25,989 nucleotides of DNA from a virus. Shown here one piece after another: positions 3,562 to 23,172 of the stretch. The translations under genes were made by a program, and so were the position numbers. The DNA is taken from positions 1 through 25,989 of the IMG/VR virus record IMGVR_UViG_3300046457_000168; one strand, written 5' to 3'. A model generated the notes under the pieces. The model saw only the letters and a list, made by a program, of their open reading frames with translations. It had not been told where the DNA came from and made no database searches. How positions within the stretch are numbered: position 1 is the stretch's first letter; every line of letters starts with the position of its first letter.

Positions 3562-4553
3562 CACGACCTCCGGTAGGGGGTGTTCCAAAGAGCCGCCTTC
3601 GCGAGCGCGGTGGCGGCGTCATCGAGCGGAGCCCCGTAGAGGTCGGTCTCCTGCGCCTTGTGGGCCTCGACGTCCGCTGTGGCCAGGGAGTTCAGGGCCT
3701 GGACCGTGCCTGCCTGCTTGTGTGCCTGCCAGCGGAAGTTGTAGTAGTCGCCGTAGCCGGATCCCCCTGGGCCGAAGGCTTGCTTGCGGCCGATGTGGAT
3801 GTCGTCGAAGAGGGCCTTGGCCTGCTCGACGACGATCTTCTGGGAGGCCAGGGAGTTGTGCCACGTGGCCGAGTTCGGGGAGGCGCTGGAGGCCGTCGAG
3901 CGCAGGTGGCTGTAGCGCTCGATCAGCGTGCGGGCGTGGGCCTCTTCCGTCTGCACGGCGTCCCACCAGTGCTTCGGGTACAGGCTGTGGGGGTCGGTGG
4001 GCAGGGACGGCGGCCGGATGTCCCAGCGGTCACGGGTGAGGTTGTAGGCGGCGTACGGGTTGATGGCCGCGATGGAATTCGACGTGGTTCCGGGGTTCAG
4101 GTAGTACGTGACCTCGTAGACCTGGCCATGAAAATCGGTGGTCGCGGTGTGCGGCCACAGGTTCTTCTTCAGATCCGAGTTCATCAGGTCGGAGAATTCG
4201 GCTTCGGAGATTCCCTGGTAGGTGGGGTTCATCTCGTAGAACTTCGGGAAGTCGATTCCGAAGAGGACGTCGAGGTCGCCGTTTCCACGGTCTCCGGCCC
4301 ACTGGAAGGAGATGCCGGATCCGGCCAGCCAGGCGGCCAGCCAGGTGCGTACGCCCTGGTAGTGGCCGTCGAGGTAGGTATTAAGCACGCCGAGGATGTG
4401 GTCGCGGACGTCCGGCTTGATGTGGTCGCCGTCGAAGATGTGCGGGTCGAGCCCTGCCTGGGGCGTGCTGAAATACCCGGAGGCGCCCGTGTGAATGTCG
4501 GGCTGCTGTCCCTGGGTGATTGCGCGATTGAGGTAGAACTCGTATCCGGCCAT
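3561..4553 (-). CDS. putative nucleotidyltransferase-fold protein, 330 aa
   Basis: Residues 62-100, DGHYQGVRTWLAAWLAGSGI then SFQWAGDRGNGDLDVLFGID, fit the polymerase-beta-type nucleotidyltransferase signature: a helix, G-(D/S), and D-h-D (D93, D95), which would bind metal. The rest is not a recognised domain: YEMNPTYQGISEAEFSDLMN, an aromatic stretch KHWWDAVQTEEAHARTLIER, and a helical end ALNSLATADVEAHKAQETDL. The target could be a nucleic acid, protein or antibiotic-like molecule; nothing here decides. One CTTAATACC word precedes the motif (VLNTYLDGH). ATG 4553 has GAAGG upstream. The stop overlaps the next ATG by one base. Confidence 0.6.
   Translation of the reverse strand: MAGYEFYLNRAITQGQQPDIHTGASGYFSTPQAGLDPHIFDGDHIKPDVRDHILGVLNTYLDGHYQGVRTWLAAWLAGSGISFQWAGDRGNGDLDVLFGIDFPKFYEMNPTYQGISEAEFSDLMNSDLKKNLWPHTATTDFHGQVYEVTYYLNPGTTSNSIAAINPYAAYNLTRDRWDIRPPSLPTDPHSLYPKHWWDAVQTEEAHARTLIERYSHLRSTASSASPNSATWHNSLASQKIVVEQAKALFDDIHIGRKQAFGPGGSGYGDYYNFRWQAHKQAGTVQALNSLATADVEAHKAQETDLYGAPLDDAATALAKAALWNTPYRRS
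4377..4385 (-). repeat. CTTAATACC word, copy 1
   Basis: In-frame Leu-Asn-Thr in the nucleotidyltransferase-like gene (VLNTYL), about 35 codons before its G-D...D-L-D motif. Confidence 0.9.
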
Positions 4554-4577
4554 GCCTTCGATTCTAGCTGGAATAGG

Positions 4578-4625
4578 GAAAGCCCCCAGAATCCAATCCG
4601 ATATGGAGGGAGACTGGGGGCTTTC
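4578..4625 (-). terminator. strong hairpin terminator
   Basis: GAAAGCCCCCAG (4578-4589) and CTGGGGGCTTTC (4614-4625) are perfect 12-bp arms with a 24-nt loop, between the Gln-rich protein stop and the next start. On either strand the GC core ends in CTTTC, so it could stop transcription both ways. Perfect pairing and position make it the clearest terminator here. Confidence 0.85.
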
Positions 4626-4640
4626 TAGTTGCTATTTCGT

Positions 4641-5030
4641 TCAGAGTTTCAGGCGGGAGCGCAGCGCGGCTTCCTGCTGCTGTTGCTGCATGGCCTGGCC
4701 CATCATCATCATCGCCTGCTGGGTCCTGGAGGCGGTCTCCATGACCTCAAGGTCCTTCAGCACGACGGAGGCCGCACCGTAGATGTCGTCGGGGGTGGCG
4801 CCGCGCCGGGGGACGAACTGCTGGGTGAGGTCGGAGGTGGCCACGACCGCACCGTCCAGGCCGACAGCGACGAGGAACGCCGTGGTGACGGGGGTGCCGA
4901 TCTCGTCCTCGGAGGGCGGGTTCTCCTCGGCCATCCTGGCCAGGGTCTCGCGCTGCTCGGGGGTGAGGTCGTCGGTATTAAGCGGCTTGTCGGCGCTGCT
5001 GGTCTGGCCGAGGATCGGGATGTTGGGCAT
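4641..5030 (-). CDS. small Gln/Met-rich unknown protein, 129 aa
   Basis: ATG 5030 has GGAG 7 nt upstream. N-terminus MPNIPILGQTSSADKPLNTD with a CTTAATACC word, then an acidic helical part (DDLTPEQRETLARMAEENPP), a strand-rich domain (TTAFLVAVGLDGAVVATSDL) and a helical tail AMMMMGQAMQQQQQEAALRS that may form a coiled coil. Layout resembles many phage proteins of unknown role; no domain recognised. A terminator follows. Confidence 0.75.
   Translation of the reverse strand: MPNIPILGQTSSADKPLNTDDLTPEQRETLARMAEENPPSEDEIGTPVTTAFLVAVGLDGAVVATSDLTQQFVPRRGATPDDIYGAASVVLKDLEVMETASRTQQAMMMMGQAMQQQQQEAALRSRLKL
4974..4982 (-). repeat. CTTAATACC word, copy 2
   Basis: In-frame in the Gln-rich protein gene (KPLNTDD), near its N-terminus. 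Confidence 0.9.
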
Positions 5031-5059
5031 GTAGTGCTCCAGATGTGGTTCGGGTGGGG

Positions 5060-5545
5060 TTACTTGTACATTCCGGCCTTGCGGCGCGCGGCAGTTACGA
5101 CCAGGGAGTGCACGGGGCAGAACTCGCAGAGGTAGCGGTCCTGGGCGCTGTTGTACTTCGGCATACCTGCCGCCTTGCGCTCTGCGGCGGTGTCCGGCGT
5201 GAGCCGCTTGGAGGCGGTCTTGTAGTCGTTGCAGCCGGGGTTGCGCAGGTGCTTCTGCCAGCAGGCGTGGGCGTCTTCCTGGAAGGTGTTCTTGGCGTTG
5301 TAGAACGCCGGGTCGAAGCCGGTGTGTCCCGTGTTCTCGCGGATCTTGGCGATGATCGTGTCGCGGGTGGAGGGACTGTCCCAGTGCTTCTTCTCCACGC
5401 GCAGCAGCGGGTGGGCGATGTGGTCGGGGTGCTTCTGGACCAGGGCTTCGAGGAGGAAGTCCCTGCGCGGGTCGCCCTCGTAGTCGGGCAGTTCTTCGAG
5501 GCTGCCGCAGGTCTTACAGAGCAGGAGCCGTACGTGCTCGGCCAT
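5060..5545 (-). CDS. cysteine-rich metal-binding protein, unknown function
   Basis: 161-aa protein. C10-X2-C13 (LLCKTCGSLEEL) near the start, C95 and C105 in the middle, and C140-X2-C143-P-V-H146 (YLCEFCPVH) near the end suggest a zinc or Fe-S site, possibly two. The last 20 residues are basic (VVTAARRKAGMYK). ATG 5545 is chosen because AGGAAGGA lies directly upstream; the TTG start at 5560 would include that site. I do not recognise a family. It is the first gene after the endolysin terminator. Confidence 0.75.
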   Translation of the reverse strand: MAEHVRLLLCKTCGSLEELPDYEGDPRRDFLLEALVQKHPDHIAHPLLRVEKKHWDSPSTRDTIIAKIRENTGHTGFDPAFYNAKNTFQEDAHACWQKHLRNPGCNDYKTASKRLTPDTAAERKAAGMPKYNSAQDRYLCEFCPVHSLVVTAARRKAGMYK

Positions 5546-5584
5546 GGTGTCCTTCCTCAAGGGGCTGTTCAGGGACCAAACATA

Positions 5585-5623: not shown

Positions 5624-5637
5624 CGTAACGAAGTGGG

Positions 5638-6615
5638 TTACTTGCCGGTCGCCAGGTAGCGGCCGAGCAGCACGTAGGAGTCACCGGCCGTGGCGCCCTG
5701 GACGGACACCTTCTTGCCGGAGACGGCCACCGTGCCGGACTTCGCGTGCGCGTAGCCGAGGGCTGCATTGGCCGGACCGCCGACCGCGACGACGACGTCA
5801 CCGGCAGCCAGAGCGGCCTTGGCCACGTCCAGACGGCCAGTGGCGACGGCACCCTTGGGCTGGAACGCGTCAGTGGCCGCCGCAGCGGTCATGGAGTCGA
5901 TGTTCTCGCCGAAGATCACCATCGTGTACGCCTTCGCAGGGGTTGGAGCAGGAGGAGGAGTTGGCTTGGACGGAGCCGGAGGCGCGGGCGGCGCGGGCGG
6001 CTTGACGACCTTGGCCGGGATGGCCAGGGCCTTCCAGGTATTAAGGTCCCCGTTCAGCAGGTTCTGGTCGAGGCCGCCGACGATGCCGTACTGGTGCACG
6101 GTCCACGTCGCCCAGCCCTCGGTCAGCGGGTGCCCGGCCGGGTTGTTCGGGTCGGCTACCCACAGCGGGTAGGACCGCAGTTCCTTCTTCTGCGCGTCCG
6201 AAGCCACACCGAGCAGGCCGGTGAGGTAGGAGGTGTAGGTGTACAGGAGAGGGGACGCCTTCGTCTGCGCCTTCACGTACGCCAGGAACTTCAGGGCGTA
6301 GTTCAGACGCTGGCTCCAGGAGCCCTCGGACGCCTCCAGGTCGAGCGCCAGGACCTCGCCCGCCTGGGCGCCCGCAGCGGACAGGAAGTGCTTGGCCTCG
6401 GTCACCGCGTCCTGGGTCGGGTGAGCGAAGTGGTAGTGGCCCAGGGGCTTCTTCGCGGCCCGGGTGGCCTTCACGATGCTGGCGTGCCGCGTGTCGCCCG
6501 TGTGCTCGCCCTCGGACGCCTTGGCGATGATGAAGGCGTTGTTCTTGCTGGCGATGGCCGACGCGATGTGCGCGGCGTCGTTGTTGTTGGAGAGGTCGAC
6601 TCCGTGGAGGGACAT
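5638..6615 (-). CDS. endolysin, GH25 lysozyme with CWB2-like wall-binding domain
   Basis: 325-aa lysin. Residues 1-210 are a GH25 (Chalaropsis-type) N-acetylmuramidase: GVDLSNNN with D7, AKASEG, LGHYHFAHP, and LALDLE with D92 and E94 as catalytic acids, then LLYTYTSYL, PLWVADPN and TVHQYG. A Pro/Ala linker (PPAPPAPPAPSKPTPPPAP) leads to residues 235-325, where VVVAVGGPANAALGYA and SYVLLGRYLATG resemble cell-wall-binding repeat 2 (CWB2). No signal peptide, so a holin would be needed for release. It cleaves host peptidoglycan at the end of infection. ATG 6615 is chosen at the conserved family start; SD is weak (AGGA). One CTTAATACC word is at DLNTWKALA. Confidence 0.93.
   Translation of the reverse strand: MSLHGVDLSNNNDAAHIASAIASKNNAFIIAKASEGEHTGDTRHASIVKATRAAKKPLGHYHFAHPTQDAVTEAKHFLSAAGAQAGEVLALDLEASEGSWSQRLNYALKFLAYVKAQTKASPLLYTYTSYLTGLLGVASDAQKKELRSYPLWVADPNNPAGHPLTEGWATWTVHQYGIVGGLDQNLLNGDLNTWKALAIPAKVVKPPAPPAPPAPSKPTPPPAPTPAKAYTMVIFGENIDSMTAAAATDAFQPKGAVATGRLDVAKAALAAGDVVVAVGGPANAALGYAHAKSGTVAVSGKKVSVQGATAGDSYVLLGRYLATGK
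6037..6045 (-). repeat. CTTAATACC word, copy 3
   Basis: In-frame in the endolysin gene (GDLNTWK), at the end of the GH25 domain. Confidence 0.9.
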
Positions 6616-7330: not shown

Positions 7331-8686
7331 TCAGTGCTCCGGCAGCGTGAACTGGGTGGCGTTCAACTTGTTCGGGTACGGCTTTCCCCGATCCGCCTTC
7401 GGACGGTCGTACCAGCCGCCCTTCGGGGCTTCGTGATCCGGATCCGGGTGTCCGACACCCTGGGTATTAAGCCCGCTGCCCTTGCCGTAGGTATTAAGCG
7501 ACGCGTCGTGCTTGTCGCCCCGTCGCCGCTTCTCCTCCGACCACTGCGCGGACTGCATGTTCGTGAGGCTGTTGAGACCCCGCTCGGACATGACGTTCCG
7601 GGCGACGTGGTCGTGGAACGCGTGGATGCCCTTGATGCCCATGTAGGCCTGCTGACTCCCGGGACCCTTCTTGGCCTCCAGGTGCGGAGCGAAGGCACCA
7701 CCACCGCTGTGCGTGTCCGACACCCAGAACTGCGAGGAGCCATGGGGGTCGACCCACGAGTTGTGATAGGCCGAGACCTTCTCACCGGCCGTCGGCTTCC
7801 ACGCGTTCGACAACTGCTTGCCGTTGAGCACCTGGTGCGTCACGTCGATGGCGAGCGCGTGGTTACGCGGGTAGCCGTTGACCGGGTAGGCGCGGTTGTC
7901 GCCTTCCTTCTTCACCAGTTCCGTGGACTTCTGGCCCGTCTTCGAGGTGACGGTCTTCTCGACCTTGTCCTCGCGTGGCACGTGGTAGTCCGGGTGGTAG
8001 TGGTAGTCGTCGCCGGTCTTGCCGGACTTCGCCCACTGGATCGCGTGGCTGGCCGCCTCGTCGTTGGGGTAGACGGCCTTGCCGGTCTCCTTGTCCGGCC
8101 GCACGAAGACGTTCTGCGGGGACGTGATCGCGTTCGCAGCGGCCTGGACGCCGAAGGGGACGCCGTTCTCCTTGGCCGACACCTTCAGGCGCGCACGCGG
8201 GCTCAGGGAACCATCGCGGGTGTGGTCCTCGGCCGGGCTGTAGAACGAGTCGTGGTGCCCGCCCTCGTGGGCGTAGGCGCGGTCGACCTGGGCACCCAGC
8301 GCGCGGTGCGCCGAGTCGGGGGTGACGCCGAACTTCGCGGCCGAGCGCAGCACGCGGGCCTGCTCGTGCGGGGAGTGGTCCTCCCAGCGCCGGTTGACCG
8401 GCATCATGTCCTTGACCGGGGCCATGGTGTGCTGCCCGTGCCAGACGTCGGATCCCTCGGGGCCCGCGAGTTCCATCTGGCCGTGCAGGTTCGGCGCCTT
8501 GTCGGTGTTCCCCATCAGGGAGTACGACTGCCGTGGCGTGCGACCGGCACCGGGCTGGTCCTGGATGGTCTTGAACCGCTCGGGGTTGGACGCCTCGAAC
8601 GTCTCACGCTTGGTGGTGGCGGCCTTCACTTCGCTGTTGTACTTGCGCGTGTCCGCGCCCTTCTGGGCCGGAGTCTTTCCTGCCAT
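7331..8686 (-). CDS. large unknown phage protein, 451 aa, possibly DUF7178-like
   Basis: The largest protein of the unknown block. N-terminus polar (MAGKTPAQKGADTRKYNSEV); middle ENGVPFGVQAAANAITSPQN, then YPNDEAASHAIQWAKSGK, NHALAIDVTHQVLNGKQLSN and VSAYHNSWVDPHG with QFWVSDTHSGGGA. This order (an A-I-T-S-P-Q-N helix, a K-A-x-x-I-L-x-G type helix, then S-x-Y-x-N and D-T-H) loosely recalls phage DUF7178-type proteins; I offer that only as a weak comparison. The C-terminal 60 residues are Lys/Gly/Pro-rich and contain two CTTAATACC words only 27 bases apart. ATG 8686 overlaps the preceding stop. Confidence 0.8.
   Translation of the reverse strand: MAGKTPAQKGADTRKYNSEVKAATTKRETFEASNPERFKTIQDQPGAGRTPRQSYSLMGNTDKAPNLHGQMELAGPEGSDVWHGQHTMAPVKDMMPVNRRWEDHSPHEQARVLRSAAKFGVTPDSAHRALGAQVDRAYAHEGGHHDSFYSPAEDHTRDGSLSPRARLKVSAKENGVPFGVQAAANAITSPQNVFVRPDKETGKAVYPNDEAASHAIQWAKSGKTGDDYHYHPDYHVPREDKVEKTVTSKTGQKSTELVKKEGDNRAYPVNGYPRNHALAIDVTHQVLNGKQLSNAWKPTAGEKVSAYHNSWVDPHGSSQFWVSDTHSGGGAFAPHLEAKKGPGSQQAYMGIKGIHAFHDHVARNVMSERGLNSLTNMQSAQWSEEKRRRGDKHDASLNTYGKGSGLNTQGVGHPDPDHEAPKGGWYDRPKADRGKPYPNKLNATQFTLPEH
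7463..7471 (-). repeat. CTTAATACC word, copy 4
   Basis: In-frame in the 451-aa gene (SGLNTQG), near its C-terminus, 27 bp from copy 5. Confidence 0.9.
7490..7498 (-). repeat. CTTAATACC word, copy 5
   Basis: In-frame in the 451-aa gene (ASLNTYG); copies 4 and 5 start 27 bp apart, the closest pair. Confidence 0.9.
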
Positions 8687-10820: not shown

Positions 10821-11419
10821 GCGAGCCTCAGGATCTCGCGGACCTTGGTATTAAGGTCCTCGATCGTGCCGTCGTTGACGATCGAGGCGTCGAACCACTG
10901 GTCCGGCAGTCCCTTGTCGCTCTTGTGGTCGTTGACGGGGCCGACGCCGGGCCGGTCTATCTTGACCAGCAGGCCGAGGCGGCTGTCGATGGCCTGGTGC
11001 TCGTTGACGAAGCGAACGTCGGTGAAGACGTACTTCTTGTCCTCTTCGAGGGCCTTGAAGACGGAGTTGACCCACACGTTCTGGTCGATCATCTCCCGGC
11101 CGACCTCGGTGCCCAGGACCTGGAGCAGCCTGCGAACCTCGGGGGAGTTCCGCTTGACGGAGTCCCACCCGTACTTGTCCACGAGGTACTGGACGCGGTA
11201 CTCGACGCCGCCGTATCCCTCCTCGACGAGGGGGTTGAGGACGTACAGGGCCTCGCGCAACTTGTCGCCGAACGCGACGCGGGTGTAGCCGTACTTCTCC
11301 AGGATCTTGGCGACGGTGTCCTTACCGGCCCCGGCGAAGCCATGGAGGCCGATGTACTGCGGGAGCCAGGATTCGACGATCTCGGTGTCGTCGTCAACGG
11401 GGGCGGTGGTGGTGTTCAC
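10817..11419 (-). CDS. deoxynucleoside monophosphate kinase
   Basis: 200-aa P-loop kinase of the phage dNMP kinase type (T4 gp1-like), phosphorylating dNMPs to dNDPs with ATP. Walker A is GFAGAGKDTVAKIL; FGDKLREAL follows as in the family, and YVFTDVRFVNEHQAI is the typical D-V-R segment that binds the monophosphate. The end has WFDASIVNDGTIEDL, the usual N-D-G-T closing motif. GTG 11419 overlaps the previous stop and has GGAGATACCAA upstream. A CTTAATACC word sits 10 codons before the stop (EDLNTKVREIL). It completes the nucleotide pathway with RNR and ThyX. The stop overlaps the next ATG by four bases. Confidence 0.93.
   Translation of the reverse strand: MNTTTAPVDDDTEIVESWLPQYIGLHGFAGAGKDTVAKILEKYGYTRVAFGDKLREALYVLNPLVEEGYGGVEYRVQYLVDKYGWDSVKRNSPEVRRLLQVLGTEVGREMIDQNVWVNSVFKALEEDKKYVFTDVRFVNEHQAIDSRLGLLVKIDRPGVGPVNDHKSDKGLPDQWFDASIVNDGTIEDLNTKVREILRLA
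10847..10855 (-). repeat. CTTAATACC word, copy 6
   Basis: In-frame in the dNMP kinase gene (EDLNTKV), about 30 bases before its stop. Confidence 0.9.
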
Positions 11420-11933: not shown

Positions 11934-12664
11934 GGGGCGACCCTTCCGTTGTCGAGGAACGCTTCCCAGGTGAGCGGAAAGTGCTCGGCGAAAGCGGCTT
12001 CCATGTACATGGCCACCCGCTCGATCTCCTCCTGGGGGAAGGAGGGGAACGTGGCGAACTCGCTCTGTGTGCGCAGGCCCAGGAAGTGCATCAGGGACCG
12101 GGGGTTGCAGGTGGCGTAGAACGAGGTGTACATGCCGACCGGAAGGACGCTGCGGGCGACCTCGCGGGCGACTCCGTCCTTCAGCATCTGCTGGTAGTGG
12201 CTGTAGGCGGCGCGGTAGATGACGCCGAAGGAGTGCTCGACGGACAGGTACTGCTCCTGGGTGCCGTGCTCGAAGCGATAACGACCCGGCTTGCCTGTCT
12301 GAGTCAGCGGGCGGTGCGCCGAAGGCATGTAGAAGACCGGCTCCAACTCCCTGTACCTGCCACTGGTTTCGTTATAAGACCAGCCGACCCTGTGGCGCAT
12401 GAACTCGCGGGCGACGAAGATCGGGGCCTCCACGAGGAAGGACAACTGCCCGTGCTCGAAGGGGCTGCCGTGGCGGTCCCGCATCAGGTAGTTGATCAGG
12501 CCCTTGGCCTCCTTGGTTTCCGCCGCAGCCGTCCCGACGGTGGAGACGCGGGCTGCCTGGCAGATCTTCGCGTCGGACCCGGCGAGGTTGTCCACGTCGA
12601 GCGTCGCGGTGATCTCGGAGCGGAGGGTGACGTCCGTGATGGTCGCCTCGGTATTAAGCGTCAT
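11930..12664 (-). CDS. thyX: flavin-dependent thymidylate synthase ThyX
   Basis: 244-aa enzyme making dTMP from dUMP with methylenetetrahydrofolate, FAD and NADPH. The ThyX signature RHRVGWSYNETSGRY (R90-Y104) is intact, and the C-terminal half has FLGLRTQSEFATFPSFPQEE with the conserved R..Q substrate region. Length matches the family (220-270 aa). It acts with RNR and the downstream dNMP kinase to supply dTTP. ATG 12664 is chosen; the codons right after are CTT AAT ACC (MTLNTEA), a copy of the repeated word. The stop overlaps the next gene's GTG by four bases. No replacement by 5-hydroxymethyl or other modified pyrimidine synthase is seen. Confidence 0.97.
   Translation of the reverse strand: MTLNTEATITDVTLRSEITATLDVDNLAGSDAKICQAARVSTVGTAAAETKEAKGLINYLMRDRHGSPFEHGQLSFLVEAPIFVAREFMRHRVGWSYNETSGRYRELEPVFYMPSAHRPLTQTGKPGRYRFEHGTQEQYLSVEHSFGVIYRAAYSHYQQMLKDGVAREVARSVLPVGMYTSFYATCNPRSLMHFLGLRTQSEFATFPSFPQEEIERVAMYMEAAFAEHFPLTWEAFLDNGRVAP
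12650..12658 (-). repeat. CTTAATACC word, copy 7
   Basis: Codons 3-5 of thyX (MTLNTEA); followed by GAGG. Confidence 0.9.
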
Positions 12665-15379: not shown

Positions 15380-16581
15380 CAGGCGGCCTCGGTATTAAGC
15401 GCCTCGTCCTCGGCCTTGGGCCGTCGGCTGACCTTCTTGGTCCCGGCCGTCTCGGCGGCCTCCAGGTCCTCTTCGGAGATGGACCGCTCGTCGACCTTCT
15501 TGGAGGCGATGAGGATCTTCTCGTACAGGGACTCCTGGAGGTCCAGGTCCTGTCGGACGTGGTCGAGCATGGGGTCCTTGCCCTGCCAGCGCAGGACCGG
15601 CTTGCCCTTGTCGTCGTACTCCCCGTTGTCGATCTGGAAGTAGGCGCCCTTGCGCTGGATGACGTCGAAGAGGATCCCCATGATCATGATCTCCTTCACG
15701 GTGTCGAAGTCACCGCGAGCGAAGTTCAGGAACGGGGCGGAGCGGAAGTAGAAGTCGATGGTGGCGGTCTGCTGCGGGGCGGCCGACTTGTTCTTGATGG
15801 TCTTGACCTTGATGACCTGGCCGACGTTGACCTTGCCCTTGCCGGGCCGGGCCTCCTGGATCCACTCGTCGCGCCGGACCTCGACGCGGGTGTAGAACGC
15901 GTAGTTCTTGGCGTTGCCGCCCGGGGTCGTGGTCGGGGTGCCGTGCGGGGAGAACTTGCCGATGGCGTCGCGGTACTGGTTGATCACGATGCCGAGCAGC
16001 GGCCGGTCGTCGGTGTCCGTCATGGATCGCTTGGTGGCCGCCCCGCTCTTGCGGAAGAACTTGCCGGTGAGGCGGGCACCGAGCGCCATGACGGCCTCGT
16101 CCATGTCCTTCTCCGACTCCTCGTCGGCGATGAGCGCCGGGTAGGAGTCGAGGACGATCATGTCGACGGACCGGCTGGCGGCGAAGTCGAGCATGGTCTG
16201 GTAGGCGAACTCCATGGCCTGGGTGGGGACGACCAGGACGCGCTCGTTGTCGACGCCGAGGGCTTCTGCCTGGTCGACGTCGTAGTGCTCTGCGGCGATC
16301 CACAGGCAGGTGAAGTTCGGGTCCTTCTTCTGGTTGGCCGAGAGGGTCTTGTAGACGATGGCGGTCTTGCCGTGGGACTCGCGGCCGATGACCTCGACCC
16401 ACTGGTTGCCCGGCCAGCCGCCGCCGAGGGCGATGTCCAGGCTCAGGGAGCCGGAGGTGAACCGCTTGGGGATGCGCATCTCGGAGGCGAAACAGACTGC
16501 GCCCGGGTGTTCCTTGTTGATCTTTGCGATGAGCGCGAGGGCTTCCTTGTCGGGGCCGCCCGCGCAGGTATTAAGTGCCAT
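15379..16581 (-). CDS. recA: RecA/UvsX-like recombinase
   Basis: 400-aa RecA-family strand-exchange ATPase. The Walker A box is GRESHGKTAIVYK (RecA has GPESSGKT), Walker B is DMIVLDSYPALI, and the DNA-binding loop region reads VINQYRDAIGKF with TTTPGGNAKNYAFYTRVEV, as in the RecA L2 segment. It would form filaments on ssDNA for recombination-dependent replication and repair, cooperating with the SSB-like and Cas4-like proteins. ATG 16581 (MALNT) is chosen because the longer frame runs through the terminator. CTTAATACC occurs twice, right after the start codon and just before the stop (ALNTEAA). The second copy overlaps the GAGG SD of the next gene. The stop overlaps the next start as TGATG. 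Confidence 0.93.
   Translation of the reverse strand: MALNTCAGGPDKEALALIAKINKEHPGAVCFASEMRIPKRFTSGSLSLDIALGGGWPGNQWVEVIGRESHGKTAIVYKTLSANQKKDPNFTCLWIAAEHYDVDQAEALGVDNERVLVVPTQAMEFAYQTMLDFAASRSVDMIVLDSYPALIADEESEKDMDEAVMALGARLTGKFFRKSGAATKRSMTDTDDRPLLGIVINQYRDAIGKFSPHGTPTTTPGGNAKNYAFYTRVEVRRDEWIQEARPGKGKVNVGQVIKVKTIKNKSAAPQQTATIDFYFRSAPFLNFARGDFDTVKEIMIMGILFDVIQRKGAYFQIDNGEYDDKGKPVLRWQGKDPMLDHVRQDLDLQESLYEKILIASKKVDERSISEEDLEAAETAGTKKVSRRPKAEDEALNTEAA
15391..15399 (-). repeat. CTTAATACC word, copy 9
   Basis: Near the end of the RecA-like gene (ALNTEAA); the following GAGG is the SD of the next gene. Confidence 0.9.
16567..16575 (-). repeat. CTTAATACC word, copy 10
   Basis: Codons 3-5 of the RecA-like gene (MALNTCA). 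Confidence 0.9.
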
Positions 16582-16712: not shown

Positions 16713-18671
16713 TCAGGTGGTCACGAGGTCGACGACCTCACACACCCCTGCGACGCAGGCCAGTTCCTGCGACCCCACGGTCTGGTCGTAGGTCTCGTAG
16801 AACGCCAGGTCCGACCACTCCACGCGGTGCTCCTTGGACGCCAGCGCCTCGTACTCCTCCTGCGTGATCTCCTCGTACGGCGCCTGGACGTACGTGTGCT
16901 CGCTGAAGGGCAGGAAGGAGACACCAGAGATCTCGGCCAGGTGCTCCCACACCCACTCGCCGACCTGCTCCCACTCGTGCTCGCGGACGCTGATGGTCAC
17001 CGACGGCTTGTGCTCGCACCAGTGCCTCTGGAAGGCCAACCACAATTCCAGGTGCTCGATGGCGCTCACGTCGTCACGTACCAGGGCGTCCTCGCCTGCC
17101 TTCTGCGGGAAGGTGAACACCCACGCGGCGGCGTTGTAGGAGTCCTCCTCGTACGGCAGGCCCGAGTCGATGAGCACGAACGCGATCGGGTCCTTCTTGT
17201 CCACCCGCACCCGCCGCTTGTAGAACTTCGCGTGCTTCTGGTGCAGGCCGGACTCACAGTCGACCAACTGGGAGACCGTGCCGGACGGCTTGACGCAGGT
17301 GGTCGCAGCCGACGCCTGGATGCCGATGCGTGCAGCCTCGGCCGCGTTGGCCTCCACCACACTCCCGCGCAGGTCTGCCAGCAGCACCTCGGTCGTCTTC
17401 AGGTTGACCGTGCCGTTGGTCCAGCGGTTGCCGTAGACCCCGGTGAGGGAGACACCCAGCAGGCGCTCCTCTTCCGCGTTCTTACGCCACTCCTCGCGCA
17501 GGTAGGGATAGTCGGTCAGCGTGCTCTGCCAGGTGCCCAGGACGGACGCCAGGCGCACCTTGCGGTACAAGTCCTCGGGGGTGTCCTCCGGCCGCACGAC
17601 GACCTCGGAGAGATTGCAGAACGAGAACGGCCGCAGAATGATCTCGCTACAGGGGTTGGTCCCGTAGTCGGTGTCCTCCTCCCGGCGCCCGAACTTCGCG
17701 GCCTGCCTCTGCGCCGCCCCACGGTGGAAGATGCCGCGCTCGCCCGAGCCGCTGGCTACGAGGGAGTCCCACTCGGTGTGGAAGTCCTCGTAGCGCATGC
17801 CGTCGGTGTAGACGGCCGAGTTGTTCGCCAGGGCGCGGTAGGGGTGCTCGACCCACCACTCCCCGCTCTTGGCCTCGGCCATCTCGCGGTCGTCCAGGTC
17901 GGACAGGGAGATCATCGCCGACCGGCGGACACCACCGACGACCACTACGGACGCGATCTTGCAGGCGATGTCGTGGACCTCGATCGGCCGGAAGTTGCGA
18001 CCGGCGGCCTCGTGGAACTTCTGCACGGTGAAGGTGAACAGGTCGTCCAGCGGACCCGGGCCGGAGGCTCGCCCTCCGAAGGTATTAAGACGTGCGCCCG
18101 CCGGTCGCACCTGGGACAGGTCCCAGTGACGCACCTCGCCCTGCCACAGGCCCTCCAGCAGGGACCGGAACGCGTAACCCCAGCCCTCCTTGGAGTCCTC
18201 GACCACGATCACGTCAGCAGCCGCACGCAGGACGGCCGGAACGGCAGGCAACTGGTCGGTGTACTGCTTCTCGACCGAGTAACCCACGCCCGTGCCGTTC
18301 ATGAGGACGTACAGCAGCTCGTCCAGAGCGCGGGCGTCCTTCAGCGGGAGGTACGAACAGTTGAAGCCCGCGATGTTCGAGCGGTCCAGGGCGGGCCCGG
18401 CCGTCATAACGGCGCGCATGGACGGCATGACCTCGTGGTTGAGGATGGCCGCGTGGATCTCGTCGACCACGGCACGGTCGGGGGTGTAGTCGTGCTTGTC
18501 CTTCAACTGGCCGAGCATGAACGTCACGTATCGGGCGACGGTCTCGGACCAGGTCTCGCGCCGGTTGTCCTCCTCGATCCACCTGGAGTATCGGCTTTTC
18601 GCGATGAAGGAGCGGTAAGGGTCGGCAAGGTCACCGGCGGGGGTGAGCAGGGAGGTCACCAGTAATTCCAT
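16713..18671 (-). CDS. nrdJ: adenosylcobalamin-dependent ribonucleotide reductase, class II monomeric type
   Basis: 652-aa class II RNR, converting ribonucleotides to deoxyribonucleotides with coenzyme B12. Visible signatures: C105 in FNCSYLPL (one redox cysteine), NPCSEIIL with radical C341 and catalytic E343, the Gly-rich FGGRASGPGPL, and C-terminal C639-X4-C644 (ACVAGVCEV), the pair that passes electrons from thioredoxin. The C-X4-C tail and single-chain layout fit the Lactobacillus leichmannii RTPR type (about 740 aa there); this copy is shorter. No separate radical subunit gene is nearby, as expected for class II. It supplies dNTPs alongside thyX and the dNMP kinase. No clear SD precedes ATG 18671; GTG six codons in is an alternative. 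A CTTAATACC word lies in the conserved ARLNTFGGRA segment. Confidence 0.95.
   Translation of the reverse strand: MELLVTSLLTPAGDLADPYRSFIAKSRYSRWIEEDNRRETWSETVARYVTFMLGQLKDKHDYTPDRAVVDEIHAAILNHEVMPSMRAVMTAGPALDRSNIAGFNCSYLPLKDARALDELLYVLMNGTGVGYSVEKQYTDQLPAVPAVLRAAADVIVVEDSKEGWGYAFRSLLEGLWQGEVRHWDLSQVRPAGARLNTFGGRASGPGPLDDLFTFTVQKFHEAAGRNFRPIEVHDIACKIASVVVVGGVRRSAMISLSDLDDREMAEAKSGEWWVEHPYRALANNSAVYTDGMRYEDFHTEWDSLVASGSGERGIFHRGAAQRQAAKFGRREEDTDYGTNPCSEIILRPFSFCNLSEVVVRPEDTPEDLYRKVRLASVLGTWQSTLTDYPYLREEWRKNAEEERLLGVSLTGVYGNRWTNGTVNLKTTEVLLADLRGSVVEANAAEAARIGIQASAATTCVKPSGTVSQLVDCESGLHQKHAKFYKRRVRVDKKDPIAFVLIDSGLPYEEDSYNAAAWVFTFPQKAGEDALVRDDVSAIEHLELWLAFQRHWCEHKPSVTISVREHEWEQVGEWVWEHLAEISGVSFLPFSEHTYVQAPYEEITQEEYEALASKEHRVEWSDLAFYETYDQTVGSQELACVAGVCEVVDLVTT
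18081..18089 (-). repeat. CTTAATACC word, copy 11
   Basis: Inside the conserved core of the RNR gene (ARLNTFG). Confidence 0.9.
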
Positions 18672-18702: not shown

Positions 18703-19149
18703 CTAGACCGAGCCGTCGGCCCTGATGATGGCGCCCGGGTTGTAGTTGCTCCGGCCTCCCAGACCGCCGGACGCGATCTGCTTGGCTGGGGTGGCGGGAC
18801 CGTCTCCTCCGCTGCCGGACGGCAGTCCAGCGGTGCTCTGCTGGAAGCGCGGGTTGTAGCCGCACTCGTAGCACTGAGCCATCGCGTTCATCATTCCCAC
18901 GGGGCGGAAGTAGTTCGTGCCTTGGCACTCCGGGCAGTGGGTGTCCTGCTTGGCCACCATCGCGCGGGCCGGAGCCTTCTGCTGTGGTTCTGGCACTGTC
19001 TGCTGGACTACCTGCTGCGGGGGGTAGGGCTGCTGTTGCGGGGTGGCCCACCACGGGCCGCCGACCTGCTGCTGCTGGACCGGCGCCGGGGCCGGGGCCG
19101 GGGCGGCCGGTCGGGCCGCCCCCAGTTTGTTAGCCCAGAAGTTGGTCAC
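18703..19149 (-). CDS. Pro/Gln-rich zinc-ribbon protein, unknown function
   Basis: 148-aa protein. Residues 10-65 are low complexity (APAPAPAPVQQQQ and PYPPQQVVQQ). Then comes a zinc ribbon with C72-X2-C75 (HCPECQ) and C93-X2-C96 (CYECGYNP). The C-terminus is Gly/Ser/Asn-rich and ends ADGSV. GTG 19149 is preferred because GGAG lies about 10 nt upstream and it allows a short overlap with the preceding stop; the upstream ATG at 19164 lacks such a site. The ribbon suggests binding to nucleic acid or protein. It lies between the polymerase and RNR genes. Function not recognised. Confidence 0.75.
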   Translation of the reverse strand: MTNFWANKLGAARPAAPAPAPAPVQQQQVGGPWWATPQQQPYPPQQVVQQTVPEPQQKAPARAMVAKQDTHCPECQGTNYFRPVGMMNAMAQCYECGYNPRFQQSTAGLPSGSGGDGPATPAKQIASGGLGGRSNYNPGAIIRADGSV

Positions 19150-19597
19150 CGAACTGCACTCCATCCGCGTAACTGATGATTCCCATATCGAGGAGATTGG
19201 CGAGGACCGCCACTACTCCGGCGCGGACGACTACGGAATGATGCCGCTGGAGAACTGCTGCGGTTTCCTCGTCCATGGAATTGCCAGAGTTAACCAGCAT
19301 AGCCGAGGCAGTAATGCCAGAAACTAGCGGGATGAGCAGCGCTAGCATTTCCCTCAGCGGTGTGAGTTGGTCGATTCGGTCGTGACTGGCCTGGTGCTCC
19401 ATTTCGGAGACGTCCTGGCTGTCCGGGGTGAGGTTCATGAGCGGGATCAGTGCCTCGACCTGGCTGCACGGGACGATGTCCCAGAGCAGCCGCTTGGTCA
19501 GCATTTGCGGGGTGTAGAGGTCGACCTGGAGGTCTTCCTCCTCGGTATTAAGCCCGTCGGGCACTTCGTCGTCCTTCTTCCAACTGAAGAGTCCCAT
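19130..19597 (-). CDS. putative single-pass membrane protein, 155 aa
   Basis: Starts at ATG 19597, overlapping the polymerase stop (TAATG), with GGAGG 7 nt upstream. The N-terminal 75 residues are soluble and acidic (MGLFSWKKDDEVPDGLNTEE) and include one CTTAATACC word. A hydrophobic stretch at about residues 91-115, MLALLIPLVSGITASAMLV, can span the membrane. The tail VVVRAGVVAVLANLLDMGII is also hydrophobic and may pack against the membrane. I do not recognise a family. Coupling to the polymerase hints at a role in membrane-associated replication or host takeover, which is only inference. Confidence 0.75.
   Translation of the reverse strand: MGLFSWKKDDEVPDGLNTEEEDLQVDLYTPQMLTKRLLWDIVPCSQVEALIPLMNLTPDSQDVSEMEHQASHDRIDQLTPLREMLALLIPLVSGITASAMLVNSGNSMDEETAAVLQRHHSVVVRAGVVAVLANLLDMGIISYADGVQFGDQLLG
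19544..19552 (-). repeat. CTTAATACC word, copy 12
   Basis: In-frame in the 155-aa membrane protein gene (DGLNTEE), followed by GAGG. Confidence 0.9.
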
Positions 19598-21576
19598 TAC
19601 TTTGCCTCCGACCAGCGGTCCACGATCTTCACGTCCGAAGAGAGCGGAACCTTGAGCAGTTTCTGGATTCCTTCGCCCAGCATGGCTTCCTTCACCAGCG
19701 CGGCACATTCCTCGGCCCGGTCCTCCGGCGCGAGCGTCACGAGTTCGTCGTGCACGGAGAGGATCAGGCGCATATCGTCCGGCAGGGCGTTGTTCAGCCG
19801 GATCATCGCCAACTTGATCAGGTCGGCCGCGCTCCCCTGGATCAGGGAGTTCACCGCCTGGCGCTCGGCACCCATCCGCAGGCCGTTGTTCTGGCTGAGG
19901 ATGAGCGGCAGGCGCCGCTTGCGGCCGAGCAGGGTGCGGATGTGCGGAGGCCGACGCGACCGGCAGACCCGTACCACTTCCTCCTTGAAGCGGTAGACCT
20001 CCGGGAACATCTTCTGGTGCATCTCCATGAAGCGCTTGGCTTCCTTCACGGTGATGCCTGCCATCGAGGCGACCTTGTCCGGGCCCGCGCCGTACACGAC
20101 GGCGAAGTTGATGCCCTTGGCGACCTGGCGGAAGTCGATACAGGTGCGGTCGCCTTCCTTGACCCGCCGCATGAACTCCTGCGGGTCCACGCCCATGAGC
20201 GCGGCGGCCGTCGCCGAGTGCGGGTCGACTCCGTTGTGGAACCCCTTGTAGAGGTCACCACGACCGATGAAGTGCGCGAGCACGACGAGTTCGATCTGCC
20301 CGTAGTCCGCGACGACCAGCTTGTAGCCGGGCGGCGCGACGAACAGGCCACGGATCCGCTTACCGAGGTCGGTGTCGGGTCGGGGGATGTTCTGGAGGTT
20401 GGGTTCGCGGCAGGAGAACCGGCCGGTCACCGTTCCGTACTGGACGAAGTCGGCGTGGATCCGGCCGTCGAAGATCCGGCACGGCTTCTTCGGGTCGCCC
20501 TCCACACCGAGGTACGCGATGGGGTAGTCGAGCAGCTTGCTGACTTCCGCGTACTCCAGCAGCTTCTTGACGACCGCGTTGTTCTCGTGCTTCTCCAGGC
20601 TGTCGGAGTCGGTGCTGAAGTCCTTCCACTCCAGCGCCTGGCCCGTGTCCCGCTTCTTCTTCCCACCGTCGGTGGGCTTCATCGGCTTGAGGCCCTGACC
20701 GCCCTCGCTCTTGGGGGCGTACAGCACCTCGGCCTTCTGCGCCGGGGCGTTGAGGTTGAACTGCTTGCCTGCGGCCCGGTAGATGTCCGCCTCGATGTCG
20801 ACCAGCCGGGCGGACATGTCCGTGACCAGCTCGCGCATCGCGGCCTCGTCGACCGGCGCCCCGGTGATGCCCATGTCGAGCAGCACCCCCAGGACGTCCT
20901 CCTCCAGCCGCCGGACGTGGGTCAGGCCCTGCTCCTGGATCTGCCGCTGGAACCGCTTCCACAGCAGCCAGGTGTACTTGGCGTCCATGTAGGCGTAGTG
21001 CGCGACCTTGGAGAACGGGTGGGCCTCGACCTGCTTGCCGACGTTCTCGGTGTCGTAGTCGACCTTGTAGTAGCGCTTGACGAGTTCCTTGAGGCCCTTC
21101 TGCTTCATGTTCTCGTCGCACAACCACTGAAGGACGATCGTGTCGGAGTACTCCGGCGGTGCGATCTCGCCCCAGTACTTCGCCGTGGAGATCAGGTCGA
21201 ATGTGGCGTTGTGCGCGATCTTGATCTTGTCTTCGGCGAAGAACAGCGGCTTGAGGATGCTGAACACTTCGGACGGGAGCATCTGCTCCGGCGGGGCGTC
21301 GTAGACGGCCGGGATGGCGTCGAACTTGCCTGTCAGCCGGTTCTTCTTGCGGGTGGCCTTGCTCACCAGGACGTCGCCGTTGGGGTGGCCGAAGGGGATG
21401 GCGTAGGCCATGCCGTCGGCGGCCAGGGAGATCCAGTTGGCGACGTTCTGCGTCGGGACGTTCCGGAAGGCGCCGAACGTCTCGATGTCGAAGGTGAAGG
21501 CCGGGCGCTCCATGAAGCGCTCGACCACGGTATTAAGCCGGTCGGGGGTGAGGATGACGGAGTTGCGGATCTGCAC
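19597..21576 (-). CDS. family A DNA polymerase with 3'-5' exonuclease domain
   Basis: 659-aa replicative polymerase of the PolI/T7 type. The exonuclease domain opens with FTFDIETFGAF (D30, E32) and HNATFDLISTAKYW. The polymerase domain carries motif A DYGQIELVVLAH, motif B RQVAKGINFAVVYG and motif C LSVHDELV. The residue equivalent to E. coli F762 is Phe in NFAVVYG, the usual dideoxy-discriminating form. Length fits phage enzymes lacking the 5'-3' exonuclease domain. Start is GTG 21576 with GGAG about 8 nt upstream. The stop overlaps the next ATG (TAATG). The gene has a CTTAATACC word at codons 14-16 (RLNTVV), ahead of the catalytic domain. It copies the phage genome together with the helicase and SSB. 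No intein or intron interrupts it. Confidence 0.97.
   Translation of the reverse strand: MQIRNSVILTPDRLNTVVERFMERPAFTFDIETFGAFRNVPTQNVANWISLAADGMAYAIPFGHPNGDVLVSKATRKKNRLTGKFDAIPAVYDAPPEQMLPSEVFSILKPLFFAEDKIKIAHNATFDLISTAKYWGEIAPPEYSDTIVLQWLCDENMKQKGLKELVKRYYKVDYDTENVGKQVEAHPFSKVAHYAYMDAKYTWLLWKRFQRQIQEQGLTHVRRLEEDVLGVLLDMGITGAPVDEAAMRELVTDMSARLVDIEADIYRAAGKQFNLNAPAQKAEVLYAPKSEGGQGLKPMKPTDGGKKKRDTGQALEWKDFSTDSDSLEKHENNAVVKKLLEYAEVSKLLDYPIAYLGVEGDPKKPCRIFDGRIHADFVQYGTVTGRFSCREPNLQNIPRPDTDLGKRIRGLFVAPPGYKLVVADYGQIELVVLAHFIGRGDLYKGFHNGVDPHSATAAALMGVDPQEFMRRVKEGDRTCIDFRQVAKGINFAVVYGAGPDKVASMAGITVKEAKRFMEMHQKMFPEVYRFKEEVVRVCRSRRPPHIRTLLGRKRRLPLILSQNNGLRMGAERQAVNSLIQGSAADLIKLAMIRLNNALPDDMRLILSVHDELVTLAPEDRAEECAALVKEAMLGEGIQKLLKVPLSSDVKIVDRWSEAK
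21529..21537 (-). repeat. CTTAATACC word, copy 13
   Basis: Codons 14-16 of the DNA polymerase gene (DRLNTVV). Confidence 0.9.
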
Positions 21577-21610
21577 GGCGGGCTCCGGTGGTGGTGGATG
21601 GGAAAGCTGA

Positions 21611-21643: not shown

Positions 21644-21655
21644 GTGGGAGGCAGG

Positions 21656-22468
21656 TCAGTCGTTCAGGATTTCCCGGACGATGGTCTTGAGTTCGCTGCG
21701 ACGGGTGACCTGGAGGATGTCCGCGTCGTACGCCTTGGCGTCGAACGTCTCCAGGTCCTCCTCGGTCAGGGGCTCGATGTCCCAGTCGTCGAGGAGGTCA
21801 CGTTCCTTGACCGGCGTGATGTAGTAGTTGGTCTTCTTGTTCTTGGTCTCCTTGCGGACGGAGAAGTAGAGGTCGTCCCGGTTGATCGGGGCGGTCTTCT
21901 TGTCCTTGGAGTAGTTCTTCAGGATGTCCGCGACCATCGGGCCGACCTGCCAGACCTTGACCTGCGGGTCCTCGGGGTCGGTGAAGTCGATGACGTTGAA
22001 GGAGATCTGCTGGCTGGGCTTGTCACCCGCGTCGTCGCACAGCGGGCACTTGCTCTCCAGGCAGGTGAAGGACTTCTTGCCCGAGCGCTCGATCCAGTGC
22101 TGGAGGAAGACCAGGAACGGTTCCTCGTCCAGGATCTTCACGATCACGGACTCGCTGCCCGCCTTGAAGTTGTCCGGGAAGCCGGAGGACGCCTGCTTGG
22201 TCTTCTCGTACGAGCCCCAGCCACGGCCGCCGACCTTCGGCGCGGGCTCGTCGTCCTCGTCGTCGTCCTCGTCACGCGAGGCACGGCGCGAGCGTCGGGA
22301 GGTGTCGGCCTCCTCGGTATTAAGCGACCGGCGCGAGCCACGGCGGGAGCCACGGGCCGGAGCCTCGTCCTCTTCCTCCGCGTAGCCCTTCTCGTCCTCC
22401 GGCTCGTCGGCCGGGGAGTACGCCTCGGTGTCGCGGGCGGTGCGGCGGCGGGTAAGGGTGCGGGGCAT
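21656..22468 (-). CDS. zinc-containing single-stranded DNA-binding protein, gp32-like
   Basis: 270-aa protein. Residues 1-80 are disordered, with alternating acidic and Ser/Arg-rich blocks. The core (about 85-230) carries H124, C136, C141 and C144 in FLQHWIERSGKKSFTCLESK followed by CPLCDD, spacing closely like the zinc site of T4 gp32 (His-X12-Cys-X9-Cys-X2-Cys). A strand-rich part follows with VIDFTDPEDPQVKVWQVGP. The end is acidic and helical, as in SSBs that recruit partners through an acidic tail. It would coat ssDNA during replication and recombination, next to polymerase and RecA. One CTTAATACC word lies in the disordered N-terminus. Assignment rests on motif layout and context; a divergent OB-fold is not proven. 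Confidence 0.65.
   Translation of the reverse strand: MPRTLTRRRTARDTEAYSPADEPEDEKGYAEEEDEAPARGSRRGSRRSLNTEEADTSRRSRRASRDEDDDEDDEPAPKVGGRGWGSYEKTKQASSGFPDNFKAGSESVIVKILDEEPFLVFLQHWIERSGKKSFTCLESKCPLCDDAGDKPSQQISFNVIDFTDPEDPQVKVWQVGPMVADILKNYSKDKKTAPINRDDLYFSVRKETKNKKTNYYITPVKERDLLDDWDIEPLTEEDLETFDAKAYDADILQVTRRSELKTIVREILND
22316..22324 (-). repeat. CTTAATACC word, copy 14
   Basis: In the disordered N-terminus of the SSB-like gene (RSLNTEE), followed by GAGG. Confidence 0.9.
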
Positions 22469-22705
22469 TCAGTTCTCCTGCTGGTAGAGATGGACGTACG
22501 AGGATGCTTCGCCCGTGTTCAGCCGGGCTTCCTCGATGTCGGCCGCGAGGGCCTTGGTGATCTGGTCGGTGGCGACCTTGTCCAGGTCGTCGAGGGTGCG
22601 TGCCTTGGGGAAGTCGTCGGTGGAGATGTCGACCTCGTAGCCGAACTCCACCCACTCGAAGTTCCCCATGGACACGTGGTGCTTCTGGCTCTTGACGATC
22701 CTCAC
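22469..22705 (-). CDS. small unknown protein, 78 aa
   Basis: Begins with GTG (22705) in a GTGA overlap with the stop of the MerR-type gene, indicating coupled translation. The product starts MRIVKSQKHHVSMGNFEWVE, followed by an acidic helical part (LDDLDKVATDQITKALAADI) and the tail SSYVHLYQQEN. I do not recognise a family. It sits between a DNA-binding regulator and the single-strand-binding protein, so an accessory role in DNA metabolism is possible but unproven. It contains the amino acids Leu-Asn-Thr encoded as CTG AAC ACG, not with the repeated nucleotide word. ATG at codon 13 is a less likely start. Confidence 0.75.
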   Translation of the reverse strand: MRIVKSQKHHVSMGNFEWVEFGYEVDISTDDFPKARTLDDLDKVATDQITKALAADIEEARLNTGEASSYVHLYQQEN

Positions 22706-23172
22706 TCGTCGCCCGCCAGGACCTTGAAGAGGTCGACGATGCGCTCGGTGAAGCGGGTGCCCTTGATCGGCTTCTGGTGGGAGACGAGGACGCCTTCCTC
22801 GTAGGCGATGCGGACCATGCCCTCGACCTGCTGGCGGGTGTACAGGCGGCGTCGGCCGCGTACGTCTCCGTCCTTGCCCGGCGACTGGTAGGTGGACTTG
22901 GGGATGACCCCTTCCCGCTCCCACTTCCGGATCGTCACGGGCTGCCGTCCCAGCGCCTTGGCGAGGTCGCCGACGGTGAAGAACTCCGTCTCGACTCCGG
23001 CCACGACGTACTTACGGGGCTTGGCATCCCATGATCCGGGATCGGCCGCCGACGGGGCGGCCTCGGTATTAAGCCGGTTGCGGTGACGTACCAGGGGGCG
23101 CGTCGATCCGGGGTAGAACTGCTCACCGATCTCGGCGAAGGCCTTGTCGATGGTGTCGGCGATGGTGTTCAT
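22702..23172 (-). CDS. MerR-type helix-turn-helix DNA-binding protein
   Basis: 156-aa protein with a winged HTH of the MerR/excisionase type at about residues 64-120: FFTVGDLAKALGRQPVTIRK, then WEREGVIPKS and the wing GRRRLYTRQQVEGM. That is the typical order of a recognition helix ending in R-K-W-E, then a wing with R-R-Y. The first 60 residues are a linker carrying one Leu-Asn-Thr motif copy (23065-23073). It probably binds DNA to regulate phage genes or to mark a replication site. The start ATG 23172 has AGGAG at 9 nt. The stop overlaps the next gene's GTG by four bases. No effector domain is seen, and no integrase is present that would support an excisionase role. Confidence 0.8.
   Translation of the reverse strand: MNTIADTIDKAFAEIGEQFYPGSTRPLVRHRNRLNTEAAPSAADPGSWDAKPRKYVVAGVETEFFTVGDLAKALGRQPVTIRKWEREGVIPKSTYQSPGKDGDVRGRRRLYTRQQVEGMVRIAYEEGVLVSHQKPIKGTRFTERIVDLFKVLAGDE
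23065..23073 (-). repeat. CTTAATACC word, copy 15
   Basis: In the N-terminal linker of the MerR-type gene (NRLNTEA), followed by GAGG. Confidence 0.9.

Follow-up and report, generated by a model that had tools for sequence, protein, structure and literature searches.

A frame-locked nine-nucleotide word, switched by one base between two clades of Streptomyces-type phages, as a candidate mRNA signal

Phages with genome-wide recognition words are known. The stoperators of Cluster A mycobacteriophages such as L5 and Bxb1 (PMC6550527; PMC3029335; PMC9283540) and the R4-type system of Streptomyces phages (PMC10276819) consist of asymmetric, transcription-oriented sites with tens of copies, have a consensus that varies from group to group and belong to temperate phages. 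Here, we describe a 9-nt word, CTTAATACC, that resembles these systems and was found in the virus record IMGVR_UViG_3300046457_000168 of IMG/VR. This record, a fragment of 25,989 bases, was analyzed in its entirety and is called the window in the following. When both strands were counted, the window contained 15 exact copies of the word and no reversed one. The word is translated in frame 0 and differs by one base in a sister clade, which makes it a candidate signal read on phage mRNA. We know of no phage whose word keeps to one reading frame and occurs in short leader open reading frames (ORFs). In line with this, the open-access literature yielded no frame-tied leader-ORF word and nothing closer than the repeats compared below, and the word strings themselves turned up only in one unrelated paper.

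A one-base switch between two clades

Searches with the ribonucleotide reductase (RNR) and DNA polymerase of the window detected 42 and 43 related loci in viral contigs, respectively. Five of these loci were located on contigs of 104.9-110.2 kb, which were fetched for analysis, and these relatives suggest that the window is part of a temperate Streptomyces-type phage of about 105 kb. A k-mer scan of the fetched loci revealed that a sister clade (B) has CTTCATACC instead of the CTTAATACC of clade A, and that this second word is equally one-sided. The A word was present 182 times in forward and three times in reversed orientation in seven A contigs, the B word 202 times forward and three times reversed in eight B contigs; several contigs of both clades are near-identical, hence these counts are not independent. 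The one-sidedness initially noticed in the window is thus retained on larger contigs. Each of the 15 contigs, some of which are fragments, contained 16-38 copies, and the word of the opposite clade was found only once in all of them, namely in G007. Two shorter B-group contigs (G025 and G026) carried one A word each.

Mapping of 39 word sites of the A contig G009 onto the other contigs by blastn showed how strictly the two words are separated. In A contigs, 142 of 155 aligned cells started with CTTAAT and none with CTTCAT, i.e., the wobble bases are kept in close relatives, as had been put forward as a check. In B contigs, CTTCAT started 158 of 207 aligned cells and CTTAAT none. Of the 36 sites that could be aligned to clade B, one or more B contigs had the switched word at 29 and most B contigs at 27. 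A comparison of G009 with G022 showed His in place of Asn at 17 of 24 word-like positions versus 9 of 785 other Asn residues. Tolerated variants comprise C to T at position 8, C to T or G at position 9 and, rarely, A to G at position 7, and the third residue of the word can be Ile or Ala. The concerted change from Asn to His and the variants of the third residue rule out a constraint on the peptide (an LNT motif), and the initial proposal that nucleotides rather than amino acids are constrained is supported. Since one base, and with it Asn to His, changed in concert, a co-evolving partner is implied by the sequences; in this respect the word behaves like the recognition site that had been suggested.

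Among 15 distinct loci carrying the word only in B, 13 were located in called genes, all of them in frame 0. At three of these 13, clade A already encodes Leu-His-Thr with usual codons (CTGCACACC), so that two synonymous changes suffice, and the remaining in-gene loci required amino-acid changes. At the two B-only loci outside called genes, one A contig also has the B word, for which reason they may not be true births. All nine A-only loci were in frame 0 as well, with the same tripeptide encoded in B at three of the nine. The polymerase site reads Leu-Glu-Glu in the outgroup loci L083 and L086. Judged from these loci, the word is imposed on the proteins that carry it.

Reading frame, orientation and leader ORFs

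In the window, all copies lie on the minus strand, in sense orientation relative to the carrier genes; the plus strand reads GGTATTAAG. The initial annotation had listed 15 exact sense-strand copies far above chance expectation, and direct counting reproduced every coordinate. None of 100 dinucleotide shuffles of the window contained the word, its first-order Markov expectation is 0.007, and it tops the over-representation ranking of 9-mers on the minus strand; chance or low complexity as its source can thus be dismissed. The two near copies, at 3394 (CTTAATATC) and 653 (CTTAATATG), are likewise present in the sequence. All 17 words are in frame 0, with 15 reading Leu-Asn-Thr (every exact copy, as claimed), one Leu-Asn-Ile and one Leu-Asn-Met, and the carriers are unrelated: DNA polymerase, RNR, a RecA/UvsX-like protein (two copies), resolvase, ThyX, deoxynucleoside monophosphate (dNMP) kinase and endolysin. 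A weak additional preference of the flanks, roughly SR-CTTMATAYC-KRGG, was obtained from 103 sites with dissimilar flanks, in which A and B orthologs can both count. The copies are as follows:

23065..23073, minus strand, CTTAATACC: ORF 22702-23172, weak helix-turn-helix (HTH)/regulator PHROG matches
22316..22324, minus strand, CTTAATACC: ORF 21656-22468; its G009 counterpart resembles Alone3 SSB 142
21529..21537, minus strand, CTTAATACC: DNA polymerase 19597-21576, codons 14-16
19544..19552, minus strand, CTTAATACC: close to the start of the frame-0 ORF 19130-20254 (stop to stop)
18081..18089, minus strand, CTTAATACC: RNR 16713-18659
16567..16575, minus strand, CTTAATACC: RecA/UvsX-like gene 15379-16581, codons 3-5
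15391..15399, minus strand, CTTAATACC: RecA/UvsX-like gene 15379-16581, close to the last codons
14947..14955, minus strand, CTTAATACC: Holliday junction resolvase gene 14902-15246
12650..12658, minus strand, CTTAATACC: thyX 11930-12664, codons 3-5
10847..10855, minus strand, CTTAATACC: dNMP kinase gene 10817-11419, close to the 3′ end
7490..7498, minus strand, CTTAATACC: ORF 7331-8686, first member of a pair
7463..7471, minus strand, CTTAATACC: ORF 7331-8686, second member of the pair
6037..6045, minus strand, CTTAATACC: endolysin gene 5638-6615
4974..4982, minus strand, CTTAATACC: ORF 4641-5030, codons 17-19
4377..4385, minus strand, CTTAATACC: ORF 3561-4553
3394..3402, minus strand, variant CTTAATATC: ORF 2731-3561; both clades retain this variant at further aligned sites as well
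653..661, minus strand, variant CTTAATATG: queuine tRNA-ribosyltransferase-like ORF 2-940

The last of these carriers, at window positions 2-940, matches phrog_887 (E 4.9e-36); queuine tRNA-ribosyltransferase-like proteins in phages may modify DNA.

The frame was recorded for 478 copies, including tolerated variants, from 15 contigs, with genes called by a simple codon-score caller of our own, which is not a standard tool and misses small genes. Of the 378 copies within called genes, 377 were in sense orientation and frame 0, and frames 1 and 2 were not occupied at all; the single antisense copy is a relaxed variant and may have arisen by chance. The other 100 copies were located outside called genes, so that the initial statement that all copies lie inside genes holds for the window and not for its relatives. 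Placing the A word in frame 1 or 2 requires a stop codon or TTA, and since TTA is unused in called genes, the A word is barred from both frames. TTA was in fact absent from 93,917 A codons and 114,715 B codons when the called genes of eight contigs from both clades were counted. Judged by codon use, the B word should be 2.8-fold more frequent in frame 1 than in frame 0, whereas its synonymous precursors in three A genomes lie predominantly in frame 0 (9 to 2 to 1). The preference of new B sites for frame 0 is thus strong by the first measure and only suggestive by the second.

A lock to frame 0 would also be expected if slow Leu-Asn or Leu-His codons paced translation, with decoding by a phage tRNA-Asn or tRNA-His setting the rate. 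All ten A/B contigs in which tRNAs were found contain tRNA-Asn, and tRNA-His is present in four of five such B contigs and none of five A contigs. However, standard decoding assigns CTC and CTT, as well as AAC and AAT, to the same tRNAs, although the word has fixed third bases, the use of AAT and CAT outside the word is similar in both clades, and the B-type contig G015 does not contain tRNA-His, which also rules out this tRNA as determinant of the B word. Pacing by codons or tRNAs is therefore improbable. The tRNA-His(GTG) itself has 86 nt, which by eye include a long variable arm (G011 5259-5344, script orientation; also in G022, G012, and G021).

Reversed-strand genes account for 0-5% of the contigs, and one conserved reversed word was found. 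It is located in a small ORF heading a reversed operon whose last gene encodes a large serine integrase, and was present in all eight contigs in which a resolvase domain was found. The small ORFs at this locus belong to several unrelated sequences; the positions of a TAGTAC-type promoter-like box, the start and the word remain constant, and the word matches the type of its clade. Since the conserved reversed word sits in a reversed operon, this locus argues that polarity probably follows transcription. It thereby bears on the possibility of a strand-polar DNA site, used for nicking as in Pseudomonas phage tf, or for priming, packaging, partition or Chi-like recombination. The nick site of tf has 9 nt, 14 copies on one strand only, and counterparts at similar positions with one base changed in LUZ24 and PaP3 (PMC3517423). 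The tf sites, however, remain one-stranded despite convergent genes, unlike the reversed copy in a reversed gene observed here, and neither a frame lock nor in-frame starts are expected for a DNA site of this kind, which we consider improbable as well.

Copies outside called genes were examined for an in-frame ATG or GTG with a Shine-Dalgarno (SD)-like stretch, located at most 14 codons upstream without an intervening stop. In ten contigs, 39 of 75 such copies had a start of this type, compared with 2,693 of 37,293 control intergenic positions (7.2%) and with 1 and 0 of 75 when the same sites were shifted by one or two bases. Examples of aligned leader ORFs encode MTRLNTCPRKGDHR, MPSRLNINGGFGAAE, MRLHTYGGPC, MRLHTRAVA and VKRLHTYAASVEQGGQR, each followed by a stop. 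MRLHTYGGPC precedes recA in B, and in A recA itself starts with MPLNTC. The leader stop overlaps the called start of the next gene at six of eight aligned loci; of the other two, one stop overlaps an uncalled GTG and one shows no overlap. At two leader loci the word lies in a longer ORF instead in some contigs. Between the clades, the leader ORF sequences diverge and start, word and stop are retained. These elements therefore have the makeup of translated leaders, i.e., of short SD-led ORFs coupled to the next gene.

One further leader, found in 11 contigs, consists of a word, an immediate in-frame stop and a partial complement of the word (AATACC..GGTATT in A, CATACC..GGTATG in B), after which additional hairpins hide the SD-like stretch and start of a membrane/HTH gene. 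Pairing was seen in 96.3% of cells across its nine distinct sequences (91.7% after shuffling), both sides had changed in 11 cells (3.6 after shuffling) and the covariation was 0.170 (0.092 after shuffling, at most 0.056 after sliding). A search of G009 at Rfam gathering thresholds gave no match at this leader. The leader, near G009 87633, complements part of the word and covaries with its switched base, which was found for no other element, and it might supply an anti-word (GGUAUU or GGUAUG) that pairs with the other copies in trans as an antisense RNA; the changes tolerated at positions 7-9 are mostly G-U compatible. Nevertheless, the match spans only positions 4-9, though positions 1-3 (CTT) are among the strictest, and the frame lock would stay unexplained, which renders an antisense RNA very improbable.

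Interpretation, and a DNA repressor site as the less likely alternative

Gene-following orientation, frame 0, in-frame SD-led ORFs and the covarying leader all suggest that the word is read as RNA by ribosomes. The initial annotation had left a role on DNA or RNA open; frame, orientation and leaders favour RNA, and nicking, packaging and priming fit less well. With a probability of about 0.5, we consider the word to be a ribosome-read mRNA signal with one specific partner that controls phage genes post-transcriptionally. The word (about SR-CUUMAUAYC-KRGG) would act as a cis signal kept in translated frame 0, and a single sequence-specific partner, of phage or host origin, would recognise it on ribosome-engaged mRNA. 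In places, its carrier would be a short leader ORF, SD-led and coupled to the gene that follows. Its most likely job would be post-transcriptional control of replication, structural, lysis and integrase genes, for example their silencing or timing by a ribosome-dependent binder or endoribonuclease, making the word an RNA counterpart of stoperators. The sequences show the sense orientation, the frame lock, the in-frame starts, the concerted switch at 29 of 36 loci, the covarying leader and, at the single reversed locus, a polarity matching that of the gene; reading by ribosomes, repression or timing as the outcome and a dedicated partner are what we infer. The narrower proposal of an mRNA password, translated in frame 0 and recognised at the ribosome by one factor whose specificity shifted by one base at about 29 places, is tentative, with somewhat less than even odds.

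Several observations weigh against a ribosome-read signal. The inference that polarity follows transcription relies on one locus, and two of its contigs, G021 and G022, hardly differ. A start of the defined type is lacking at 36 of the 75 non-genic copies, several of which lie in longer ORFs missed by the caller. In the structured leader, further pair types are no more numerous (9) than in the shuffled control (10.2), the word/anti-word helix is part of the minimum-energy fold of only five of 11 sequences, and the element can also be read as an inverted repeat in DNA. The word is no more unpaired than random implants (p 0.96), by which a preference for accessibility is ruled out. Part of the frame bias could stem from mutational supply, given the precursor counts. 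Most copies lie deep in genes, where an effect on initiation is not expected, and no specificity factor stood out among 108 protein families common to at least three A and at least three B contigs.

The distribution of the word along the genome is of relevance for the strongest alternative, a stoperator, in which a repressor binds the asymmetric double-stranded DNA word, blocks RNA polymerase in one orientation and silences the prophage, rendering the clades heteroimmune. Within 60 nt of a gene boundary, copies showed an enrichment of about 2-fold (p at most 0.011 in 10 of 11 contigs; 0.077 in G016). The first 20 codons had a 2- to 3-fold excess (six contigs, p 0.0045 to 0.081), the last 20 no significant one (p 0.058 to 0.22); relaxed protein constraint at the termini may contribute. 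Codons 3-5 behind an SD-like start were occupied by 30 of 464 copies. Two blocks of small genes that lack named homologs and are taken for early genes contain no exact word (G009, 72.3-87.6 kb; G011, 83.7-101.9 kb). The conserved word closest to a promoter-like sequence, picked by eye, lies upstream of it in a small gene and not on the promoter, which speaks against an operator at this likely early promoter. No promoter-like element with a common downstream -10 was seen by eye.

A stoperator agrees with the published description in that an asymmetric, transcription-oriented word, with an extended motif of about 14 bp, occurs in tens of copies and differs in consensus between sister clades, and in that word-bearing phages contain integrases, none of which were found in BRock and Alone3. 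However, the copies are mostly inside ORFs instead of intergenic and keep frame 0, DNA binding does not require in-frame starts at non-genic copies, the likely early promoter has no overlapping word, exact words are missing from the early-type block, and a conserved XRE protein has an identical HTH in both clades. Stoperators account for copy number, orientation, the switch between clades and lifestyle, whereas frame lock, in-frame leaders and the preference for ORFs are left unexplained; an mRNA word read with the ribosome would account for these three. We regard a DNA stoperator as unlikely, though as a serious alternative.

If the word is indeed an mRNA signal, a temperate phage would have a new route to address many of its own messages simultaneously, and phage immunity or timing groups would be possible at the level of RNA and ribosome, not only of operator DNA. 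The two clades represent a natural specificity swap (A versus C at one base), which makes the partner findable. Even as a DNA repressor site, the word would have been rewritten in concert at about 29 sites against protein sequence, which bears on the divergence of immunity groups.

Regarding this partner, 39 of the 108 shared families have no strictly A/B-separating residue, for which reason they are unlikely to set word specificity; they include XRE/DUF5753, the serine integrase and a DUF2637-HTH protein. The XRE/DUF5753-DUF397 pair was rejected as specificity factor, with an HTH identical in both clades and no separating column in XRE. A weak candidate for a ribosome-dependent nuclease is a DUF4258/BrnT-like protein (G009 45547-45895) with a sub-threshold Pfam hit (E 0.035). 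The best PDB match of its model (pLDDT 71.7) is RelE1 (E 0.017), followed by CdiA-type toxins, none with E at or below 0.001. Homologs were found in 33 Streptomyces phage records, no comparable codon triple was seen in the 45 kb of Patelgo examined, and the B word is itself one of the differences of this protein between the clades. Alternatively, the partner may come from the host.

Host, lifestyle and comparison with known systems

A Streptomyces host is likely given the nearest annotated phages BRock, Alone3, LuckySocke, GiJojo and pSt2308, whose polymerases are 50.9-51.9% identical. BRock is reported to be virulent and without lysogeny genes. The group under study consists of soil phages with the word in dozens of genes. 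Among 33 records searched, 16 contained the word, 14 of them with 8 to 38 nearly all one-stranded copies and two with a single copy. Counts were at chance level in BRock, with no A word and one reversed B word, and in Alone3, with one A word and one reversed B word. Neither k-mers nor codon triples revealed a comparable word in L083, L084, Nonomuraea L159 (22 kb examined), G028, G029 and Patelgo (45 kb examined); since ORF picking for the codon-triple scan was crude, with only 16 of the A words recovered in G009 and 9 of the B words in G011, a weak word could have escaped.

Two integrases are encoded by G009, one of the tyrosine type (PF00589, E 4.7e-16) and one of the serine type (PF00239, E 1.1e-29). 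A resolvase domain was detected in eight of 13 records, comprising all searched word-bearing contigs but the fragment G014, and not in BRock, Alone3, G028 and G029. A tyrosine integrase was found in none of nine records (BRock, Alone3, G028, G029, G031 and four short word-bearing fragments). From this distribution of integrases, word and lysogeny genes co-occur, though phylogenetically this is a single event. At G009 1-3519 and the orthologous locus elsewhere, the tyrosine integrase adjoins the large serine integrase; since the strength of the resolvase match ranges from 3e-32 to 9e-14 between contigs, different serine integrases seem to occupy one locus. The 51% polymerase relative L159 (Nonomuraea typhae NZ_VRLV01000004.1, 116784-138733) is probably a prophage, because it sits on a 735 kb scaffold of a bacterial genome. 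Its tyrosine integrase differs from that of G009, which has no match in the Nonomuraea typhae genome.

Further features were noted in the relatives. A c-di-AMP (ydaO) riboswitch (L092:15912-16051, i.e., G009 95912-96051; 59.6 bits versus a gathering score of 38) is located between tRNA genes immediately ahead of ORF 96141-96678. A 71-residue protein near the integrases of G009 (L088:4662-4877) has no Pfam hit, and its C-terminal HTH resembles sigma region 4 by eye. In G015, CCCCACACCAG occurs nine times forward and never reversed (0.05 expected), apparently running into AGGAG, and is perhaps a start-associated motif.

Compared with Cluster A stoperators, the 16-38 copies per contig correspond to about 20-36 sites per genome, the consensus differs between related groups as CTTAATACC does from CTTCATACC, and a single orientation relative to transcription is mirrored by 377 of 378 sense copies. 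Stoperators are, however, mainly intergenic or at gene ends, whereas 378 of 478 copies lie in called genes here, and the ORF-internal position, the lock to frame 0, the leader ORFs and the apparent lack of a copy at the likely early promoter set the word apart; a repressor was not found either. The nick sites of tf (PMC3517423) share a 9-nt length, one-sidedness, similar positions in relatives and a one-base switch of the whole set, but keep one genome strand whatever the gene direction, in contrast to the reversed word of eight contigs. The 17-bp repeats of Cluster O mycobacteriophages (PMC4351075) and the 18-bp motif of Microbacterium Cluster EC phages (PMC7302621) are also genome-wide in actinobacterial phages, with about a third of the Cluster O sites in coding regions; unlike here, the former are palindromic and the latter intergenic, and no frame lock is described in the accessible text. 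The Start-Associated Sequences of Cluster K mycobacteriophages (PMC3203893) are asymmetric, repeated, in one orientation and tied to translation, and some genomes have a single opposite-strand site, as observed here, but they directly precede start codons, at the ribosome binding site, whereas the word is ORF-internal and often far from the start. The leaders, finally, resemble translated leader ORFs with translational coupling in being short, SD-led and overlapping the next start with their stop, and differ from them in that their content is one genome-wide nucleotide word, which is found inside full genes as well.

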